Shown here in pieces: positions 1,359 to 52,680 of a stretch of DNA of 52,680 nucleotides. Below the pieces are notes generated by a model, which had not been told where the DNA came from, ran no database searches, and saw only the letters and a program-made list of their open reading frames with translations. The stretch lies in NCBI GenBank assembly GCA_031283085.1, contig JAITCM010000099.1:1-52680 (forward strand), written 5' to 3'. This DNA is from Chitinispirillales bacterium. Its GTDB lineage: Bacteria; Fibrobacterota; Chitinivibrionia; Chitinivibrionales; Chitinispirillaceae. A program made the translations under genes and the position numbers. Within the stretch, counting starts at the first letter, position 1. Each line of letters begins with the position of its first letter.

Positions 1359-1936
1359 TAACCGAAAAGTGCCGGATACAGGAAAAAAGCGCCGACCGCC
1401 CACCCGGAACTTACCCTTGAACAAGGCCGTATAGACAGAATCCCCGCCACCATACAAGCCTGACAGCGGCGCCAGACGCCAAACCCACCCCCGCCACACC
1501 CCCAAATATCCCCCAAAAACCGATTGGCACGAAATTTGCGGTATAAATAATTGATGGGTAGCCGGGTTAAGGGCGGGTAAGCGGCCTGAACCCAAAAATA
1601 TTGCAATTTTTTGTTGAAAAATTACCCGATTAATTGTATATTATATAATGGTGTATGGGATAGATACCGGGTAAATGCCCAAAATCAGGCTAAAAACAAA
1701 GCGCCGACACCGGCAAAACGGCTGAACTAAGGCGGAAAATTACGCCGGGAGGCGGAAAAAAGTTCGCGGTTACGCCGGAAAACGGCAAAACCGCGCCTGA
1801 CAGCAAAAAAAACTAAAGAAACAGGGCGGGTTTCACGATATATTAAGTTATGGCCGGACTGTAGAGGGCATTCTAAAGGAGATGAACGAATCGATAGGGG
1901 GTATATTTTGATACGTGTATCCATGGGCGGCCATAT
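1359..1936. other. Intergenic region with nested hairpin
   Basis: No gene is supported in these 578 bases. A nested stem is present at 1765-1795 (CGCGGTT with AACCGCG, enclosing GCCG/CGGC). An AT-rich segment near 1625-1650 contains TATATT/TATAAT-like boxes and could hold a promoter. An AAAGGAG at 1876-1882 runs straight into an ATG (1882) of a nine-codon frame; the spacing is too short to be a normal start. Confidence 0.4.
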
Positions 1937-2185
1937 ATGGAAAAAATAGCCATCGACATTACTGACACCGAAGATATTTGGGCGGTGCGCAAGATAGGGT
2001 TGGACGCACTGGATAAGGCGTTGGGAGAGGAAGACACAAAAAGGTTTTTGAGACTTTGGAGCGGTTACGGAACCGGACGTGATTGCGTGAAAGCGCGGCA
2101 CGAGTTAAACAAAACAATAACGAACGAGGAAATAATGGCCGGAGCCTTGAAATTGCAGGAAGAAGGCGGCGACGCAAGCAAATAG
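1937..2185 (+). CDS. Small conserved hypothetical protein
   Basis: An 82-residue acidic protein with no signal peptide or membrane segment. The pattern RKIGLDALDKALG...FLRLWSGYGTGRD...RHEL...TNEEI resembles a small hypothetical family seen in spirochaetes and cyanobacteria, in which an 'R.IGL.AL...LG...FL...' helix is followed by a 'GYGDYTKERH' block; here that block is partly altered. Members of that family often neighbour toxin-like genes, but no partner is seen here. The start codon ATG at 1937 has no strong ribosome binding site. Function unknown; the family link is from memory and is moderate at best. Confidence 0.5.
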   Translation: MEKIAIDITDTEDIWAVRKIGLDALDKALGEEDTKRFLRLWSGYGTGRDCVKARHELNKTITNEEIMAGALKLQEEGGDASK

Positions 2186-2503
2186 ACGCAAATTAGTATG
2201 AATAAGCACGAAAACGTAAGTTTATAGCGCATACTCTGTAACTGGGAATTGAAAAATAACAAACGGCGGACGGAACAGGCCCGCAAAGACCGGGGGAAAG
2301 GAGGGTTTGTACTGGATGGAAAAATGACGGCGGCTAAGCGCCGCTCCGCCGTACAGTGCCGGATTTTTTGTACTTTTGGGTGAAGTACGAATGTCGGAAT
2401 CTCCACGGAAAGCGTATGGGTGACGCTGACCGTGGAATTGTATAGTTTTTACGTTCCTTTTTTCTAAACACTTTTGCCGTATACCCTTACAAAGGAGGGG
2501 ATT
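2186..2503. other. Intergenic leader before surface-protein gene
   Basis: No gene is supported. The last 60 bases are T-rich and end in AAAGGAGG (2491-2498), the ribosome binding site that fixes the start of the next gene at ATG 2504 rather than at the upstream in-frame ATG 2474. Confidence 0.5.
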
Positions 2504-3463
2504 ATGAGTACGAGTACGAGTAAGAAGTCTGTCGGCGCGCGGGTGCGCGAACTTGCGCGGGGGCTCTTTACGTTTGAGTCTGGGTGGAAGATGGCTATGG
2601 TTGCGGTGGCTTTGGGAGGGGTGATTGGGATTGCGTATACGGACCTACCGACAAACGCCCCAACAGATCCATCTGGGCTGACATCGGGAACGATGTCGGC
2701 ATCTTATACTGTGCAGAACATTGCCGAGCTCGAGGTGACACCGAAAAATCCTAAGGATACTGAACTCGGAAAAAATGTTACAGAAATCCTTAACGGAGCC
2801 GATTTTGGAAACTTGGGAATAATCCGTGTAAAAACTAATGCCACAGCTTGGGATGTCCAAATGACTGCGCTTGACAGTGGAAAATTGACTAAAGTCGGAT
2901 CACCTGAAGATTATGATTATGACACGTTGAAAGACTGGATAACCGGCGTGTATGTGCAACCTTTAAATATCACAGCCACACCAAAAGGAAGTCAAAAACG
3001 TCTGTTGAAACCAAGTGATAAATTTGTATCCGGGAGCACTGATAGCTGTGTGTATCTAGATGTTTCGATAGGGGTGGCCAAAACAGGTGCAGCCTTAGGT
3101 GTGGGAACACAAAGTGTGTTGTATCCACTAATCAGTGGAACCAATACGTTTGCGACACCAATTAAGGTGGGGCGTACTCATTTGGAGAAACCGGTGAGCT
3201 TTGCCGATTCAATAGGACACCACTATGCCGTTAGCGGTAATATCACCGGAGACTTCGCGAGTGGAATAAGGAAGTCTGCGACTGGAAGAGCAACATGGTC
3301 AAATATAAGTAGTGATGGTTTCCCGACACCGCAAGATAACTATGTACCCGATGAGGAATACTTCTATGTGAATGTTGGAGGTATCCACCCTGACAGCGTT
3401 GGCGCAAATCCTAACGGTACCTATAAATCAACGTTCAAATTCGACCTGAAGGCAAACTTTTAG
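2504..3463 (+). CDS. Secreted fimbria-like surface protein
   Basis: A 319-residue protein with a basic N-terminus and one hydrophobic segment (about residues 29-43, MAMVAVALGGVIGIAYT) that looks like a long signal sequence or anchor. The rest is Gly/Thr/Ser/Asn-rich and probably beta-stranded, and it ends in alternating hydrophobic residues (NGTYKSTFKFDLKANF), the kind of C-terminal strand seen in subunits handled by periplasmic chaperones. AAAGGAGG six bases before ATG 2504 sets the start. A PapD-like chaperone gene follows, so a structural subunit of a pilus or surface layer is a reasonable inference. I do not recognise a specific family, and no usher gene is nearby. Confidence 0.6.
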   Translation: MSTSTSKKSVGARVRELARGLFTFESGWKMAMVAVALGGVIGIAYTDLPTNAPTDPSGLTSGTMSASYTVQNIAELEVTPKNPKDTELGKNVTEILNGADFGNLGIIRVKTNATAWDVQMTALDSGKLTKVGSPEDYDYDTLKDWITGVYVQPLNITATPKGSQKRLLKPSDKFVSGSTDSCVYLDVSIGVAKTGAALGVGTQSVLYPLISGTNTFATPIKVGRTHLEKPVSFADSIGHHYAVSGNITGDFASGIRKSATGRATWSNISSDGFPTPQDNYVPDEEYFYVNVGGIHPDSVGANPNGTYKSTFKFDLKANF

Positions 3464-3543
3464 GTTTAAATCACCGGCACGGTACCTAACTTAACTAAAG
3501 AACCGTCAGCCGCCGGTAGTACGCAATTGGCACTGGTACGCAA

Positions 3544-3568
3544 GGGGCGATTCCATATCGCCCCATTT
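3544..3568 (+). terminator. Hairpin terminator or attenuator
   Basis: A perfect 8-bp stem, GGGGCGAT (3544-3551) with ATCGCCCC (3557-3564), loop TCCAT, is followed by ATTTTC. It lies between the surface-protein gene and the chaperone gene and may lower expression of the downstream genes relative to the structural subunit. The U-run is short, so termination may be partial. Confidence 0.6.
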
Positions 3569-3693
3569 TCAGGTCAGTTCATTATCAACCTTTCCTGATT
3601 CTTTGATTCCTGATTCTTGATTCCAGAGTTCCAGTCAAAATAAAAAGAAGAAATGGAAACAGCAAAAAGATTTATAAAAAAAGGAGGCTATCT

Positions 3694-4389
3694 TTGGTCA
3701 TACATAATATTTTTCGGTTGTGGTATCTATTGTTGTTAGCCGTTCCTACCGTCCAGGCGGCGTTTACCATTGAGCCGGCGTTGGTTTTATTTTTTGCGGA
3801 CAGGGGTGAGAAGACGGCGTTTGTTGAGATTGTGCACACGGGCGGTGACCCGGCCGCGGTGCAATTTAGCGTGTTTGAGCGGATATTGGACAACGACGGG
3901 AAACTCGTCAAGGATGGGATGCCTAAAAGTTCTGACTTCATAGTGCATCCGGCGCAGGTTATCCTGTATCCAAAAGAACGCGCCACCGTCCAAATCCAGT
4001 ACAGGGGCAAGGGCAGGGTGACAGCGGACAGGGCTTATGTGCTCTACTCGCAGGAGGTGCCTATAGACGTGGGGCGGGAGGATGACGGCGTCAATATGGC
4101 TGTGAGGGCGCTCACGAACTATCACACCGTCATCTCGCTGGACACCGGAAAACCCGGTAAGCTCGTGTTCGTCTCGTCTAATGTGGTAGGCGGCGGACGG
4201 ATAGAGGTATTAGCGGAGAACAGGGGCGCCGGACGTGTGAGGATGGAACGGATAAATCTCGTTGTAGAGGGCAGGTTAATCAGGGAGATGACGGGCAATA
4301 GCAATTCGATAATGCCAGGTCAGCAGCGCCGCTTCACCTTCGTGTGGCCGAGGGCTGTTACGGCCAAGGAGGTGAGGTTTGTCTACTGA
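3694..4389 (+). CDS. Periplasmic fimbrial (PapD/CsuC-like) chaperone
   Basis: A 231-residue protein with a cleavable-looking signal peptide (WYLLLLAVPTVQA, cut near residue 22) and an immunoglobulin-like chaperone fold. The first domain has FTIEPALVLF, a hydrophobic 'FVEIVHTG...VQFSVFERI' pair of strands, and the family pattern 'D.DG......SSDFIVHPAQVILYPKERATVQIQYRG', followed by the 'RAYVLYSQEVPID' strand. The start is TTG at 3694, set by GGAGG at 3683-3687; no in-frame ATG fits. Such chaperones donate a strand to fold pilus subunits in the periplasm and hand them to an outer-membrane usher. The substrate is probably the preceding gene product; the usher is not in the window. Confidence 0.75.
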   Translation: MVIHNIFRLWYLLLLAVPTVQAAFTIEPALVLFFADRGEKTAFVEIVHTGGDPAAVQFSVFERILDNDGKLVKDGMPKSSDFIVHPAQVILYPKERATVQIQYRGKGRVTADRAYVLYSQEVPIDVGREDDGVNMAVRALTNYHTVISLDTGKPGKLVFVSSNVVGGGRIEVLAENRGAGRVRMERINLVVEGRLIREMTGNSNSIMPGQQRRFTFVWPRAVTAKEVRFVY

Positions 4390-4457
4390 TATGGGTGTAT
4401 GACAGCCCCCGGCCTTGCGTTACACGGTTCAGAGTACGCTTTTTTTTGTTTAGCGAT

Positions 4458-4486
4458 TTGGATTTTTCAGATTTGTGATGTATATT
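4458..4486 (+). promoter_or_regulatory. Predicted sigma-70-type promoter
   Basis: TTGGAT (4458-4463), 17-base spacer, TATATT (4481-4486), just upstream of the 43-codon ORF at 4543. A short palindrome, ATATTC-AA-GAATAT (4487-4500), directly follows the -10 box and could be an operator. Both are predictions from sequence only. Confidence 0.45.
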
Positions 4487-4542
4487 ATATTCAAGAATAT
4501 ATATTTGAAATCTAAACCTGAAAAATTCACAGGAGAAGCGTT

Positions 4543-4674
4543 ATGGCGGTAAAAACCGCGGGAACGGCGTCGGCTAAAAGAGAGGTACCGGTCAAAAAGG
4601 CCAAAAAGGCCGTATCCGTCCAAAAATCTAATTGTTTTTTGCGTTTTGTATCATCCGCGACAGTATGTTTATAG
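4543..4674 (+). CDS. 43-residue Lys-rich small protein
   Basis: An ORF of 43 codons starts at ATG 4543 behind AGGAG (4531-4535). The product is Lys/Ala/Val-rich in its first half. Its first residues (MAVKT, then a Lys/Arg/Val/Pro-rich run) resemble the N-terminus of the coiled-coil nuclease-like protein at 47039-47878, whose upstream bases are also similar, so it may be the leftover 5' end of a lost paralogue. Its stop codon (4672-4674) overlaps the ribosome binding site of the next gene, which would permit translational coupling. It may be a leader, a relic, or nothing functional. Confidence 0.45.
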   Translation: MAVKTAGTASAKREVPVKKAKKAVSVQKSNCFLRFVSSATVCL

Positions 4675-4685
4675 GGAGGTGCGGT

Positions 4686-5360
4686 TTGTCTATTGAACGG
4701 TCAGAATCCGCTTACGTTTCGCGTTATGTCCTTTGGGCATTTGCCGCCCTGCTGTTTTTCGTCGCCGCGGCGTACCCGCAGGCCGTCCCGTACATAGAGG
4801 ACATTGTGGGCATGGATGGCATAGAAGCTTCCGTCGGCAAGAGGGTTGTGGCGGAGGATGATGACGGTGGATTGAGTTTGATAGGTACTTTCAAGCTCTT
4901 CAACCCCGACACCGTCCCGTTTTATCTGTGGGTATCGTTTGAGAACGGCGGCCGGCTGGCGCATTCGCGTCACCGGCGCGACTCTCCGGCGATACGTTTG
5001 GTTGACATGGAGCTTCGCTACCGTGACGCGTCGCAGCGCCCCATAGTGAAGGAGTTTCCCGACAACGCCGGCCCGCGTGTGAGGCCGCGTTTGGGTTGGG
5101 CTTCGTCGAGAAGCGTGAGCGGCGGCGCCGCCGGCCGGTTTGGGAGGAAGAAGGCGCATATAGAGCAATCCGCGGACGCGGCGTCGAGCGTCCGGCACCG
5201 CGGCATGGGCGCCGTCGAGATTGTCTTCTGGCAGGAGGACGCGCAGGCGTACTACGAGATGGAGCTATGGGGCGTCCTGTACGCGCCGGACGTGAGGAAG
5301 GCTGTGGTCGCGGGGAATTACGTGGAGAACATCAAGTTTGAGATAGAGGCCGTGAAGTGA
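4686..5360 (+). CDS. Exported protein of unknown function
   Basis: A 224-residue protein when started at TTG 4686, which sits six bases after GGGAGG (4674-4679); the upstream in-frame ATGs lack such a site. The N-terminus is a signal peptide (SRYVLWAFAALLFFVAAAYPQA). The mature part has possible beta-strands (SLIGTFKLFNPDTVPFYLWV) and an Arg/Gly/Ser-rich middle (about residues 135-165). I recognise no domain. Position after the fimbrial chaperone suggests an accessory or subunit protein of the same surface structure, but that is inference from context. Confidence 0.55.
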   Translation: MSIERSESAYVSRYVLWAFAALLFFVAAAYPQAVPYIEDIVGMDGIEASVGKRVVAEDDDGGLSLIGTFKLFNPDTVPFYLWVSFENGGRLAHSRHRRDSPAIRLVDMELRYRDASQRPIVKEFPDNAGPRVRPRLGWASSRSVSGGAAGRFGRKKAHIEQSADAASSVRHRGMGAVEIVFWQEDAQAYYEMELWGVLYAPDVRKAVVAGNYVENIKFEIEAVK

Positions 5361-5594: not shown

Positions 5595-6719
5595 ATGCAA
5601 GAGTTTCAAACGCGGCGGCGTTGCGGGCGCGAGGGGCGGGTGCGGATACCGTCGGGTTGCGCCATAACGGGGATAATAAGCAAGTCCGGCAGGCGTATGA
5701 GCGGCGAGCGCGTCATCCGTTCCATTTCCGTGATGCACGACCGCTCCAACGGGCTGGGCGGCGGCTTCGCGGCTTATGGGATTTACCCGGAGTACCGGGA
5801 TTACTACGCTTTCCACATATTTTATGAGTCCTCGGCGGCAAAGAAGGAGTGCGAGGAGTTCTTAGAGCGCCATTTCGACATCATCAACCTGTCGAAAATC
5901 CCCACGCGGAAGGTCAAGGAAATCACCAACGAGCCGCTTATATGGCGCTACTTCCTCACCCCGCTGCCCACCAAGCTCGCCGACAGCCAGCTCGACGAGC
6001 GCGAGTTCGTTGTGAAGTGCGTTTTCCACATAAACGCCGGCGCGGATATGAAGGGCGCCTACGTCTTTTCATGCGGCAAGGATATGGGCGTGTTCAAGGC
6101 GGTGGGCTTCCCGGAGGACGTGGGGCGGTTTTACAAGCTGGAGGAGTACGAGGGGTACTGTTTCACGGCGCACGGGCGCTACCCCACAAACACGCCGGGC
6201 TGGTGGGGCGGCGCCCACCCGTTCGCGCTGCTCGACTACTCCGTGGTACACAACGGGGAAATATCCTCCTACGACGCCAACCGCCGCGCTATAGAGATGT
6301 ACGGGTACAAGTGCTCTCTCCAGACCGACACCGAGGTTATTACATATATAATAGATTATCTGCACCGGAAGAAGCGGCTCACGCTTGATGAGATAGCGCT
6401 GGTGGTCGCCGCGCCGTTTTGGCAGACGATAGGGCGCATGGAGCAACGCGACCGGGAGACGCACGAGTACCTGCGCACTATTTTCTCGTCGCAGCTCATC
6501 ACCGGCCCGTTCTCCATCCTTGTCGGGTTTGAGGGCGGGCTGATGGCCCTCAACGACCGCCTGAAGCTGCGCAGCATGGTTGTGGGCGAGCGGGCCGATA
6601 TGGTGTACATCGCGAGCGAGGAGGCGGCCATTCGGATAATCGAGCCGAATCTTGACGCCCTGTGGGCTCCATTAGGCGGCCAGCCGGTTATCATTCGCGC
6701 AAACGGAGGCGAAGCGTAA
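5595..6719 (+). CDS. Split glutamate synthase, glutaminase (GATase II) subunit
   Basis: A 374-residue class II glutamine amidotransferase that corresponds to the first domain of large glutamate synthases. It hydrolyses glutamine and supplies ammonia for glutamate formation from 2-oxoglutarate. The nucleophile Cys is in PSGCAITG (about residue 22), with the Arg/Asn substrate-pocket motifs seen in ISVMHDRSNGLGGGFAAYG, HGRYPTNTPGWWGGAHPF and VVHNGEISS. The start is ATG 5595 behind GAGAGGG; upstream in-frame codons from 5523 are not supported. The nucleophile is preceded by a short leader, as in other split-type members, so processing may be needed. It is the first gene of five tightly spaced or overlapping genes. 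Confidence 0.88.
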   Translation: MQEFQTRRRCGREGRVRIPSGCAITGIISKSGRRMSGERVIRSISVMHDRSNGLGGGFAAYGIYPEYRDYYAFHIFYESSAAKKECEEFLERHFDIINLSKIPTRKVKEITNEPLIWRYFLTPLPTKLADSQLDEREFVVKCVFHINAGADMKGAYVFSCGKDMGVFKAVGFPEDVGRFYKLEEYEGYCFTAHGRYPTNTPGWWGGAHPFALLDYSVVHNGEISSYDANRRAIEMYGYKCSLQTDTEVITYIIDYLHRKKRLTLDEIALVVAAPFWQTIGRMEQRDRETHEYLRTIFSSQLITGPFSILVGFEGGLMALNDRLKLRSMVVGERADMVYIASEEAAIRIIEPNLDALWAPLGGQPVIIRANGGEA

Positions 6720-8224
6720 TGGCTATAAACTTTTTATACCCCGACTACGAGGTCGCGAGGAACTGCGACAGGTGCATAGTCTGCCGCGCCTGCGAGCGGC
6801 AGTGCGCCAACGAGGTGCACGAATACGTCGACACGCTCAACAAGATGGTCTGCGACGACGCGAAGTGCGTCAACTGCCACCGCTGCGTGTCGCTCTGCCC
6901 CACGCGAGCGCTCAAAATCGTGAAGAGCGGCAATACCTACAAAGAGAATATGAATTGGAGCGGCAAGACGATAAACGAGGTTTACCGGCAGGCCGGTTCG
7001 GGCGGCGTGTTACTCTCCAGTATGGGGAACCCGGAGGAGTATCCCATCTATTTTGACAAAATCCTGCTAAACGCCTCCCAGGTGACGAACCCGTCCATAG
7101 ACCCGCTGCGCGAACCGATGGAGACGACTGTCTTTTTGGGCGCGAAGCCCCACAATATAGAGCGCGGCGAGGACGGGCGTATAAAAAATAATTTGCCGCC
7201 GCAGCTGAAACTCTCAATGCCCGTGATGTTCTCGGCGATGAGCTACGGTTCCATCAGCTACAACGCGCACGAGAGTTTGGCGCGGGCGGCGGAGGAGCTT
7301 GGTATTCTATACAACACCGGCGAGGGCGGCCTGCACGAGGATTTTTACCGCTACGGCAAGAACACGGTGGTACAGGTGGCGTCGGGGCGTTTCGGCGTCC
7401 ACCCTCAGTATTTGAACAGCGGCGCGGCGGTGGAAATCAAGATGGGCCAGGGGGCAAAGCCCGGCATCGGCGGCCACCTGCCCGGCGCGAAGATAGTGGG
7501 CGACATATCAAGGACGCGGATGATACCGGAGGGAAGCGACGCCATCTCCCCCGCCCCGCACCACGACATCTATTCCATTGAAGACCTGCGCCAGTTAGTC
7601 TATTCCCTGAAAGAGGCGACGGACTACAAGAAGCCTGTGATAGTCAAGATAGCCGCCGTCCACAACGTGGCGGCAATCGCCAGCGGCATAGCCCGCAGCG
7701 GCGCGGACATAATCTCAATAGACGGTTTCCGCGGCGGCACCGGCGCCGCCCCCACGCGCATAAGGGACAACGTCGGCATCCCGATAGAGTTAGCGTTAGC
7801 CAGCGTCGACAGCCGTTTGCGGGAGGAAGGGATAAGGGACGACGTATCGATAATAGTAGGCGGCAGCATCCGCTCCAGCGCCGACATAGTAAGAGCCGTG
7901 GCCTTAGGCGCCGACTGCGTCTATGTTGCCACATCGGCATTACTGGCTCTCGGCTGCCATTTGTGCAGAAGCTGCCACGCCGGCAAGTGCAACTGGGGCA
8001 TAGCCACGCAATCCCCGGAACTTGTAAAGCGTTTGAACCCTGATATAGGGTACAAACGCCTTGTCAACTTAATGACAGCGTGGCAGCATGAGATAAAAGA
8101 GATGATGGGCGGGATGGGAATCAACTCAATCGAGAGCCTGAAGGGAAACCGGTTGATGCTGCGGGGTGTGGGCCTAAACGAAAAGGAATTGTCTATATTG
8201 GGCATTAAGCACGCGGGGGAATGA
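6719..8224 (+). CDS. Split glutamate synthase, FMN/[Fe-S] synthase subunit
   Basis: A 501-residue protein. The N-terminal 70 residues hold two 4Fe-4S motifs (CDRCIVCRACERQC and CVNCHRCVSLC); the rest is the FMN-binding TIM-barrel of glutamate synthase, with SYGSISYNAHESLARAAEE, NTGEGGLHEDFYRYG, IKMGQGAKPGIGGHLPG, SIDGFRGGTGAAP and a late cysteine cluster (CHLCRSCHAGKCNWG) that fits the 3Fe-4S site of the family. It makes glutamate from 2-oxoglutarate, ammonia and reducing power. ATG 6719 overlaps the previous stop by one base (TAATG). Confidence 0.9.
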   Translation: MAINFLYPDYEVARNCDRCIVCRACERQCANEVHEYVDTLNKMVCDDAKCVNCHRCVSLCPTRALKIVKSGNTYKENMNWSGKTINEVYRQAGSGGVLLSSMGNPEEYPIYFDKILLNASQVTNPSIDPLREPMETTVFLGAKPHNIERGEDGRIKNNLPPQLKLSMPVMFSAMSYGSISYNAHESLARAAEELGILYNTGEGGLHEDFYRYGKNTVVQVASGRFGVHPQYLNSGAAVEIKMGQGAKPGIGGHLPGAKIVGDISRTRMIPEGSDAISPAPHHDIYSIEDLRQLVYSLKEATDYKKPVIVKIAAVHNVAAIASGIARSGADIISIDGFRGGTGAAPTRIRDNVGIPIELALASVDSRLREEGIRDDVSIIVGGSIRSSADIVRAVALGADCVYVATSALLALGCHLCRSCHAGKCNWGIATQSPELVKRLNPDIGYKRLVNLMTAWQHEIKEMMGGMGINSIESLKGNRLMLRGVGLNEKELSILGIKHAGE

Positions 8225-8235
8225 CAGGAAAACGT

Positions 8236-8333
8236 ATGATAGTTGAATTAAAAATAAAAGATGAATTGAAATAATGACAGCGATAATAAACGTTGATTTT
8301 GATGTTGATATCAATCAATACACAAGGCAATAA
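8236..8333 (+). other. Two possible tiny coupled ORFs
   Basis: In the AT-rich gap after the synthase subunit, a 12-codon ORF (8236-8274) behind AGGA is joined by TAATG to a 19-codon ORF (8274-8333), which ends four bases before the ferredoxin-like gene at 8338. A perfect palindrome TTGATATCAA lies at 8305-8314. They could carry ribosomes to the next gene, which has a weak binding site, or be chance frames. Confidence 0.25.
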
Positions 8334-8337
8334 AATT

Positions 8338-8775
8338 ATGAAACGTGTTTACGTAAACGAAAAATGGTGTTTGGGCTGCCACCTCTGCGAATACTACTGC
8401 GCGTTCGCGGGGACAAACGAGACCGATATGGCCCGCGCGCTCAAGGCTACGATAAAGATCAACCCGAAGATTAAAATCGAGGAGAAAGACGGGGTGAGCT
8501 TCGCCGTCTCCTGCCGGCACTGCAAGGAGCCGCTGTGCGTTAAGGGTTGCATCACCGGCGCGCTGACCATATCGGCGGACGGCGTCATCACCATAAACCA
8601 TGACCGCTGCGTGAGCTGCTTCACCTGCATCTTGAGCTGCCCTTACGGCGCGGTCTCCCCGTCGGAGGACGGCGCGGTGCAGAAGTGCGAGCTTTGCGTC
8701 AAGACGGCCAAGGGGCAGCCGGCCTGCGTGTCGGGGTGCCCCAACGGCGCTATCGTCTTTGAGGAGAGAGGGTGA
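8338..8775 (+). CDS. 4Fe-4S ferredoxin-like electron-transfer subunit
   Basis: A 145-residue HycB/DmsB-like iron-sulfur protein with four cysteine clusters: CLGCHLCEYYC, CRHCKEPLCVKGC, CVSCFTCILSC and CELCVKTAKGQPACVSGC. This gives room for up to four [4Fe-4S] clusters. It should pass electrons from the neighbouring FAD oxidoreductase or from reduced ferredoxin to the FMN synthase subunit. The start ATG 8338 (MKRVYVNEKW) is chosen over 8293 because the Fe-S fold begins there. In archaeal-type split glutamate synthases such a protein replaces part of the small subunit. Confidence 0.82.
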   Translation: MKRVYVNEKWCLGCHLCEYYCAFAGTNETDMARALKATIKINPKIKIEEKDGVSFAVSCRHCKEPLCVKGCITGALTISADGVITINHDRCVSCFTCILSCPYGAVSPSEDGAVQKCELCVKTAKGQPACVSGCPNGAIVFEERG

Positions 8776-51048: not shown

Positions 51049-52098
51049 ATGCTATATGCGCGTAAGGATAAAGTAAAAGTCGGCGTATTGGGCGCGACCT
51101 CCTACACGGGGGCCGAACTTGTGAGGCTGCTTAGCTTCCACCCCGGCGCGTCGATTCGCTACGTCTCCTCTCAGAGCTACGAGGGGAAGACGCTTTCCTC
51201 CGTATTTCCGGCGCTTGCGGGGATATGCGACGACGTGTTGCTATCGCCGAGGGAGGCCGTCGCTACGGACGCGGAATGCGTCTTCTCGTGCCTGCCGCAC
51301 GCGGCCAGCGCCGAGCTTTTGTTGCCTGTTATCGAGCGTGGGATAAAGGTGATTGACCTCAGCGCCGACTTCCGGCTCAGGGACGCTAACGTCTACAAGG
51401 AATGGTACTGCGACGAATCGCACCCCGGCCACCCCGCCCCGCAGTTGCTTGAAAAGGCGGTCTATGGGCTATGCGAGCATTACCGGGAACATATTGCCGG
51501 AGCGTCCATTATAGCCAACCCCGGCTGCTACGTGACCAGCGTCCTCTTGCCGCTACTCCCCCTCTACAAGGGCGGGGTGAAGATTGATTGGGCGATAGCC
51601 GACTCGAAGTCCGGGGTCAGCGGGGCGGGGCGGGGGCTAAAGCAGAACACGCACTTCCCGGAGGCCAACGAGAACTTCAGCGCCTACTCAATCGGGCACA
51701 GGCACAGGCACACGCCGGAGATGGAGCAGGAACTGTCGGTCGCGGCGGGCAGGCCGGTAACGCTCACCTTTTCGCCGCACCTCTTGCCGGTGAACCGGGG
51801 GATACTGTCAACGATATACCTGAAGACGGAGAGTACGGCGGCGGAGTGCGCCGAGACAGTCAAAAAGTTCTACTCCGGCGAGGCGTTCGTGCGGGTGCGC
51901 GGCGCGTCGGATTTGCCGCAAATATCCTCCGTTGTCCACACAAATTATTGCGACATAGCCTTTACCGGCGGCGGCGCGGGGCAGCCGGTTATCGCGGTGT
52001 CGGCGCTTGACAATCTGGTGAAGGGGGCGAGCGGGCAGGCGTTGCAAAATATGAATATCATGTTTGGGCTTCCGGAGACGGCGGGGCTTTTGCGGTAA
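51049..52098 (+). CDS. argC: N-acetyl-gamma-glutamyl-phosphate reductase
   Basis: A 349-residue enzyme of arginine biosynthesis: NADPH-dependent reduction of N-acetylglutamyl phosphate. NADP site VGVLGATSYTGAELVRLL; catalytic Cys in NPGCYVTSVLL; HRHRHTPEMEQEL and FSPHLLPVNRGILSTIY; C-terminal ALDNLVKGASGQALQNMN. ATG 51049 behind GGGGG is chosen over ATG 50818. No other arg gene follows; carA in the same window supplies the same pathway. Confidence 0.95.
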   Translation: MLYARKDKVKVGVLGATSYTGAELVRLLSFHPGASIRYVSSQSYEGKTLSSVFPALAGICDDVLLSPREAVATDAECVFSCLPHAASAELLLPVIERGIKVIDLSADFRLRDANVYKEWYCDESHPGHPAPQLLEKAVYGLCEHYREHIAGASIIANPGCYVTSVLLPLLPLYKGGVKIDWAIADSKSGVSGAGRGLKQNTHFPEANENFSAYSIGHRHRHTPEMEQELSVAAGRPVTLTFSPHLLPVNRGILSTIYLKTESTAAECAETVKKFYSGEAFVRVRGASDLPQISSVVHTNYCDIAFTGGGAGQPVIAVSALDNLVKGASGQALQNMNIMFGLPETAGLLR

Positions 52099-52182: not shown

Positions 52183-52680
52183 TTGACGGAGAATAAAACA
52201 AATACGGCTAAGTCTTCGGCAAGCGCAAACGGGGCCAACCAGTATATTTATATTGTTCAGGCGTCGCTGGAGCCGTCAAAATGCAAAATCGGCAAGACCA
52301 ATGACCTTGACCGGCGGCTGAAAGAATATAATAACATGACCGGCAAGTCCCAGGAAAACGTTTACAGGTATCTGTTCACCTGTGAGGTTAAAGATATGGC
52401 GCGGGTGGAAAGCGCCGTTAAAAAAGAGTTTTTCGAGGTTCGTGAGGACGCGGCCAAAGAAATATACTTTTACACCATCCACCTGTTTAAGAAATATGTC
52501 GATTTTATTAAATCGCATAAGTTGTTCGTAAAGGAAATTTTCATCAAAGAGGATGATAACGGGCAAATAGTAAAAATAGTGAAAAAAACAACGCCGTCCC
52601 TTGCGGTTCGGGGGCTGTCGCCGAAAGATGTGATGCAAAAAGCGCAGAAAGTAAAAAATGATGAATTTTACACCAGGTAT
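52183..52680 (+). CDS. GIY-YIG-like/adenine methylase fusion, partial
   Basis: The frame is open from TTG 52183 (behind AAGGGG) to the window edge (166 codons), so it is partial. Residues about 21-105 form a T5orf172/MUG113-type GIY-YIG-like domain: QYIYIVQASLEPSKCKIGKTNDLDRRL, and ARVESAVKKEF. Near the edge KVKNDEFYTRY matches the start of EcoRI-type adenine-specific methyltransferases (N-D-E-F-Y-T-R-Y). A joined GIY-YIG-like domain and methylase suggests restriction-modification or an orphan methyltransferase. The methylase part is inferred from seven or so residues. Confidence 0.7.
   Translation, partial: MTENKTNTAKSSASANGANQYIYIVQASLEPSKCKIGKTNDLDRRLKEYNNMTGKSQENVYRYLFTCEVKDMARVESAVKKEFFEVREDAAKEIYFYTIHLFKKYVDFIKSHKLFVKEIFIKEDDNGQIVKIVKKTTPSLAVRGLSPKDVMQKAQKVKNDEFYTRY

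Follow-up and report, generated by a model that had tools for sequence, protein, structure and literature searches.

The window analyzed here, a stretch of 52,680 bp that represents the entire contig C16 of the Chitinispirillales assembly G000, ends within an open frame, and the question raised by this locus is whether the frame encodes a DNA nuclease and a DNA methylase in one polypeptide and, if so, what such a protein might do. In a preliminary description of the window, the frame was taken for a GIY-YIG-like (T5orf172/MUG113-like) domain joined to the start of an EcoRI-type adenine methylase, and a new fused restriction-modification (R-M) protein was proposed. The features of this end of the window are as follows.

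51049..52098, plus strand: argC (Pfam semialdehyde dehydrogenase), the host gene that precedes the inserted fusion
52183..52680, plus strand: first 166 codons of the gene in which T5orf172/GIY-YIG and an EcoRI-type methylase are fused, with a TTG start and an open 3' end
52240..52464, plus strand: T5orf172 nuclease domain (GIY-YIG clan), residues 20-94 (Pfam 3.1e-11, over the cut-off)
52465..52656, plus strand: linker before the methylase, with the conserved stretch ...KKTTPSL..RG...VMQKAQ (alignment A1)
52657..52674, plus strand: NDEFYT, the most N-terminal of the motifs conserved in the EcoRI-type methylase domain (alignment A2; PF13651 begins nearby in relatives)

The frame is indeed organized as described. 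Besides T5orf172, it matches the Pfam model MUG113 over the cut-off (1.7e-7) and GIY-YIG below the cut-off (6e-4), and its end, ...KNDEFYTRY, aligns to the start of the EcoRI_methylase domain of intact relatives, the contig end at position 52680 cutting the frame within the first residues of this domain. When IMG/VR was scanned with the 166-residue product of the frame, a single locus was found, L004, which lies on a viral contig and encodes an intact fusion of 438 amino acids. Residues 4-150 of this protein are 69% identical to residues 20-166 of the window frame, and Pfam recognizes in it both T5orf172 (6e-11) and EcoRI_methylase (1.9e-38), the PF13651 match running from residue 135 onward. 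We then aligned (alignment A2) a total of 47 rows, consisting of 40 of the 48 loci of the family described below, extra copies from gene arrays, L004 and the window, after omission of eight loci that are split, deleted or cut (L074, L077, L079-L083 and L085). Both domains and the C-terminus are present in 32 of the 47 rows, and thus the domain join is not a matter of chance. In the NDEFYT columns of this alignment D, E, F and T are invariant and Y is nearly invariant.

The preliminary description had recommended extension of the sequence and a search for the NPPF/DPPF motif of methylases. By searching the assembly of the window with argB of a congener, we found contig C56, which ends with 89 codons of the family C-terminus, the stop codon being located 31 nt before the ATG of argB. 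This tail of 89 residues matches residues 347-434 of the L004 protein at 68%, and by itself gave no Pfam match. The names argC and argB are those we presume for the two genes; Pfam supports both enzyme classes, the argB product being an amino acid kinase. The fusion frame begins 84 bases downstream of argC. The order argC then argB is found in congeners G007, G001 and G002, that is, in three of the five with a readable gene after argC, and a tRNA-synthetase gene follows argC in the other two, G004 and G005 (by Pfam for the G004 gene); in G006 the contig ends within argC, and G003 gave no match. Since the family tail stands just before argB on C56 and three congeners carry the argC-argB order, the fusion of the window organism is very probably situated between argC and argB, in the same direction as both. 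We infer the joining of contigs C16 and C56 from this synteny; when the last 30 bases of the window were compared with other contigs, allowing up to 2 mismatches, no overlap was found. The extension thus supplied the C-terminal end of the gene, and about 195 codons of the middle, including the NPPF region, fall into the assembly gap between the two contigs. As to the motif itself, NPPF was found in 45 of the 46 aligned rows in which the middle of the methylase can be read, the remaining row, an array copy, having NPSF (the eight omitted loci are outside this count). A lack of methylase motifs in the rest of the gene, named beforehand as evidence against a fusion, is hence not what the relatives and the tail before argB indicate.

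The complete EcoRI-type methylase gene on contig C90 of the same assembly was considered as the missing part and rejected; it is a separate gene. This stand-alone methylase (G000:C90:60987-62003; L002:395-2532) is the only PF13651 match in the assembly and overlaps by 4 bases with a gene for a GmrSD_N/HNH endonuclease; the two are unusual partners and seem to be a further R-M system in this genome.

Both PF13651 and T5orf172 are matched over the cut-off in all eight intact fusions scanned, PF13651 with values from 3e-36 to 2e-43, and the family shares with M.EcoRI-type methylases (PF13651) both the NDEFYT start and NPPF. A model of the whole L004 protein (pLDDT 84.9) resembles class I adenine methylases, including M.TaqI (Z 9.8, rmsd 3.1, 148 aligned), the top row being an rRNA adenine methylase (Z 11.5); in a Foldseek search with this model no E value was under 0.001. 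By sequence, solved structures gave no match at E<=1 and NCBIfam gave two matches, both far below the cut-off. PADLOC assigned a Type II methylase model together with the candidate model PDC-S57 on the N-terminal domain, and the PHROGs matches were to families of unknown function.

At the presumed nuclease site, the columns of A2 contain Y in 34 of 34 rows, K in 34 of 38, R in 37 of 37, Y in 38 of 39, E in 39 of 39 and N in 37 of 40. The window copy has Y23, K35, R45, Y49 and E76, and it carries T98, just outside the Pfam match, at the position of the Asn, so that with Thr in place of Asn the nuclease of this copy may be weak or dead. Membership of the GIY-YIG superfamily is indicated by the domain match together with Y23, K35-I-G, R45 and E76. 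The Tyr of the YIG half-motif is replaced by the above-mentioned Lys; of the four rows with other residues, three represent leader residues of the methylase-only copies in L053 (see below). The superfamily allows this Lys, since it is found also in R.Hpy188I, a GIY-YIG restriction enzyme with the proposed site residues Y63, K73, R84, Y88, E149 and Q169 (PMC2630997). By order and spacing, the six residues of the family may be equated with this set, both then reading Y-K-R-Y-E-(N/Q). The structure modelled for residues 1-126 of the window frame (mean pLDDT 82) was aligned with Slx1 (6sei_C) at Z 8.2 (rmsd 3.4, 105 aligned) and with At-HIGLE at Z 7.2, as compared with 4.2 for the first unrelated chain, 3.9 for I-TevI and 3.2 for UvrC; Foldseek gave a best E value of 0.004 with a probability of 1.00, none being under 0.001. 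DNA cleavage by a T5orf172 enzyme has been reported for Odn, for which the E180A mutant does not cut (PMC8263062). The nuclease is, however, not always kept in the family, as indicated by methylase-only copies, by a deletion within the nuclease domain of L074, and by loci split into separate frames.

Matches were found in 5 of 100 related genomes, that of the window included. In a profile scan of genomes, one per species, at least 80 loci were kept, and among the matches listed the top 48 (L038-L085) share 52% identity or more with the query in the best segment, whereas the following loci are at most 36% identical and match from residue 117 or later, i.e. in the methylase alone. By this comparison the 48 loci form a group separate from other EcoRI-type methylases. 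Among the matches listed they belong to 38 genomes of 8 phyla: Bacteroidota (9 genomes), Campylobacterota (9), Pseudomonadota (6), Spirochaetota (5), Planctomycetota (3), Elusimicrobiota (3), Fibrobacterota (2) and Acidobacteriota (1). Rumen is named in the titles of several of these genomes, many others are presumably termite-gut MAGs, and the seven Helicobacter members we take to be gastric species. The phyla are mixed in the tree, with Planctomycetaceae grouped with Prevotellaceae (97/72) and Elusimicrobiaceae with a proteobacterium (98/93), in a tree with many weak forks and 19 well-supported inner branches out of 52. Seven of the 48 loci are split into separate frames, including those of 4 of the 7 Helicobacter species, in which a check for phase variation revealed repeat runs of only 6-8 that are present also in 2 of 3 intact copies. 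A small gene of about 170 amino acids lies upstream of the fusion in six of the seven Helicobacter loci (L065, L077, L078, L079, L082 and L085); it is split in L079, is accompanied in L085 by an extra frame before the fusion, and has no Pfam match in its L078 copy. Among mobile genomes, a second viral scan yielded 78 loci, of which, as judged by the residues matched, the N-terminal domain was matched by the L004 contig alone. When the N-terminal part of the window frame was searched at 1e-5 against 72,556 plasmid and 50,697 phage records, nothing was matched. A Helicobacter member is matched by 52 plasmid records, none of which covers 80% of it, and the best 15 of the 52 match from residue 132 on only.

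The gene is multiplied in some genomes, in two different manners. In the Chitinivibrionia genome G038 (the WRFX MAG) it is found at 13 places (9 genes that are complete and 4 truncated by contig ends), and because four of the places are partial, the genome holds 11-13 copies. These are dispersed, none being side by side, and the 11 rows of this genome form a single clade in the tree (98/99). The pN/pS ratio among the 11 copies is between 0.19 and 0.39 in every region, with 0.25 in the nuclease domain, values that indicate purifying selection. The second manner is the tandem array. In L053 (Holophagaceae), one fusion is followed by three methylase-only genes of 346 amino acids, and in L055 (Planctomycetaceae) two fusions are accompanied by one methylase-only gene; L076 and L084 carry one methylase-only copy each. 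The three methylase-only copies of L053 (L053:5259-8419) share a distinct leader of about 37 residues instead of the nuclease domain.

The copies within genomes were also compared part by part. In L053, the identity between copies 5259 and 6319 drops at residue 285, from 98% on its N-terminal side to 69% on the other, and their synonymous difference is 0.09 for residues 119-285 versus 0.89 thereafter. For the copies 3935 and 7379 the relation is reversed (0.31 in the last part versus 0.43 before). With two copies so alike as far as NPPF and so different beyond it, the presumed recognition half would seem to be exchangeable. A breakpoint test, which ignores differing constraint along the protein, was significant in all six pairs of L053, three of the breakpoints marking only the unrelated leader and the others being located at 285, 300 and 388; of the two lines of evidence, we give more weight to the synonymous contrast in L053. 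In G038 the test was significant in 33 of 55 pairs, and among the best 20 of these 33 breakpoints, 9 are at 278-300, just after NPPF, 5 at 84-118 and 4 at 409-414. In some G038 pairs the nuclease part is near-identical, as in L034/L027_16260, which differ at synonymous sites by 0.06 in this part and by 0.63 in the last part. For this genome as a whole, the mean synonymous difference increases only slightly at residue 285 (0.53 before it, 0.58 after it). In L055 the test was significant in one of three pairs, at residue 50.

In order to see with what the gene is associated, we surveyed the neighbours at 49 loci, leaving out 7 Helicobacter and 7 duplicate WRFX loci. The only gene adjoining the fusion in two genomes was an IS1595-type transposase; the other shared neighbour pairs adjoined each other in no more than one locus, were confined to one genome, or came from a contig represented twice. 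A control of 32 methylase-only loci was of no use, for its 942 pairs include the methylase itself. Both transposase cases are apparently elements of the IS1595 family with the fusion as a passenger. That in L063 (Alphaproteobacteria SIG50; 1781-5313) has a transposase (2.5e-42), perfect 24-bp inverted repeats and an 8-bp duplication, and is located inside a Cys-rich repeat gene with EGF-type matches below the cut-off. That in L037 (G053; 5884-8724) has a transposase 59% identical to the former and perfect 24-bp inverted repeats, of which the first 14 bases are as in L063, without a clear duplication. The host of L037 is a family f8 member of the phylum of the window. The repeat core is absent from 47 of the 49 places, and also from the window, the right flank of which is missing from the contig; to be a passenger of IS1595 is thus a property of two members as judged from their flanks, and not of the family. 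On the viral contig L004, imperfect direct repeats of 225 bp (79%; 4427-4651 and 6367-6582) flank the fusion next to a tyrosine recombinase. Among 22 other places, 19 have no flanking repeats and L041, L046 and L030 have only repeats of 16-17 bp. Ten neighbours, chosen by eye, were examined in G038 and included EF-G, Hsp70 and IMP dehydrogenase, with two other DNA methylases on C45. A copy on contig C31 (L028) adjoins a gene for a type IV coupling protein, and with Rep3 and ParA genes on the same contig this copy appears to be on a plasmid-like contig (plasmid or conjugative element), which may, as may the viral contig L004, represent a further vehicle. Most copies have no mobile partner among the neighbours examined. 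The flanks of two G038 copies, when tested, were found on different contigs in the copy-free congener G029 and were not syntenic there.

We also counted palindromes. GAATTC is present in 400 kb of G038 at 0.22 of expectation (45 seen, 205 expected), as compared with 0.63 in a congener without the gene; the window contains 7 versus 9.3 expected, and G053, with one copy of the gene, 37 versus 49 expected, avoidance being not evident in the window and slight in G053. The depletion in G038 fits with R-M, though many other palindromes are depleted as well, both in G038 and in G029. CTCGAG and CTGCAG are absent from 400 kb of G038 (L228-L247). In 400 kb of G029 (L248-L267), GTATAC is absent and GTCGAC and GTAGAC are rare, a pattern that we take to be AccI-like.

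The fusion with its intact motifs, the purifying selection, the spread across phyla, the copy expansion, the sharp divergence after NPPF in one array and the two IS1595-borne copies are all apparent from the sequences, and taken together they suggest that the family probably represents a single-chain R-M enzyme, similar to Type IIC/IIG, in which GIY-YIG replaces the PD-(D/E)XK nuclease. In such an enzyme the C-terminal EcoRI-type N6-adenine methylase would bind a short DNA site through the recognition half after NPPF, the N-terminal GIY-YIG (T5orf172) domain would cut DNA at unmethylated sites, and methylation by the same protein would shield the host. The cleavage and methylation would thus be coupled in one chain with a presumable role in defence. 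Because one recognition half would serve both activities, its swap by recombination would alter restriction and modification together, and for this reason a genome could keep many copies of differing specificity, either dispersed or in tandem arrays. With respect to the claim of a fused R-M protein, the methylase fusion is borne out by NPPF and PF13651 of the relatives, and restriction itself is predicted.

The known Type IIC/IIG enzymes such as MmeI, Eco57I and BcgI likewise have a nuclease followed by a gamma-class NPP(F/Y/W) methylase in one polypeptide, with a C-terminal recognition part in many (PMC4081073), and this architecture, in this order, is found in 32 of the 47 rows. The family differs from them in its GIY-YIG/T5orf172 domain instead of the N-terminal PD-(D/E)XK nuclease of the majority form, in its length of about 430 residues, and in its EcoRI-type methylase; the PD-(D/E)XK nuclease is not strictly defining for this class, and several Type IIG systems per genome do occur, up to 20 in Borrelia (PMC4081073). 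The GIY-YIG enzymes R.Hpy188I, R.Eco29kI and R.Cfr42I differ in being encoded apart from their methylase, and two of them, Eco29kI and Hpy188I, work as homodimers (PMC4081073). An artificial R-M fusion made from Eco29kI was functional and was classed as Type IIC (PMC3039593). In Helicobacter pylori, specificity is changed by recombination of recognition parts within and between genes, there mainly in Type I and III systems and not in a fused GIY-YIG enzyme (PMC3983042). By analogy, the cleavage by Odn, the man-made Eco29kI fusion and this domain movement lend support to the parts of the one-chain R-M reading. Phage ICP1 likewise has T5orf172 nucleases, namely Odn and putative homing genes, that are amplified and diversified within a genome (PMC8263062, PMC10448857), but they are joined to DNA-binding domains and carried by phages, with no methylase mentioned (PMC10448857). 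Nearest in print, within the paper searches, are yeeC, a T5orf172 gene that stands separately in the Bacillus dnmA cluster (PMC9973331), and the Slx1-type GIY-YIG of five Lactobacillales, a natural one-chain protein with an NPPY methyltransferase (PMC1564403). The latter belongs to the Slx1 branch, its COG4123 class I methyltransferase is N-terminal, and in the cited portion it is not presented as restriction-modification (PMC1564403). The literature searched by title and start of abstract, REBASE being outside its scope, contained no T5orf172/GIY-YIG and EcoRI methylase fusion, and that on termite-gut R-M nothing on the family. The family may accordingly be called new within these paper searches, the Lactobacillales protein being a different GIY-YIG and methyltransferase fusion already in print.

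Other explanations assign the same protein different functions. It could be a selfish gene of the homing type, in which T5orf172 makes breaks by which the gene is copied into new places, the methylase protects the host from the nuclease and restriction of phages is incidental. This would agree with a solitary gene without an evident fixed partner that is scattered 11-13 times as one clade in G038, with its location between argC and argB in the window organism, and with the reading of the amplified T5orf172 genes of ICP1 as homing genes (PMC10448857). We nevertheless consider homing unlikely, because the neighbours hardly recur and so reveal no insertion-site preference, no occupied site with a cleanly bounded empty counterpart was seen (the non-syntenic G029 flanks included), the copies have diverged at synonymous sites under purifying selection, and some travel in ordinary vehicles, namely the IS1595 elements and the plasmid-like contig. 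No greater chance is given to a mainly epigenetic methylase with a GIY-YIG domain that is inactive or an aid for DNA binding, for which the swaps of recognition would diversify the methylome and not restriction: the methylase-only array copies, the split Helicobacter genes and T98 of the window copy point in this direction, but the residues of the nuclease site are conserved wherever the domain is present, and the nuclease domain is under constraint among the G038 copies.

A modification-dependent (Type IV-like) nuclease, or a counter-defence nuclease of phages or plasmids with a methylase for self-protection only, is very improbable. The copy near the tyrosine recombinase in the IMG/VR contig and that next to the coupling protein gene on C31 would suit it, yet no matching plasmid record covers 80% of the Helicobacter member, the N-terminal part of the window frame has no plasmid or phage match at 1e-5, no further fusion was detected among the 78 viral loci, and other copies adjoin genes such as EF-G and Hsp70. 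The single-chain R-M enzyme could also be extended to a one-gene R-M element that spreads and diversifies itself, in which GIY-YIG not only restricts but also drives the copying and gene conversion of its own gene, building about a dozen specificities with the recognition halves reshuffled and the nuclease and catalytic halves kept alike; this extension is speculative, and we hold it to be improbable, if marginally less so than homing.

If the single-chain R-M reading is correct, the family would represent a naturally occurring one-chain R-M enzyme that cuts by means of a GIY-YIG domain and is distributed over 8 bacterial phyla. If active, the family would provide small enzymes in which changes of recognition can be studied, and would open to test the growth of restriction repertoires and their movement between phyla.
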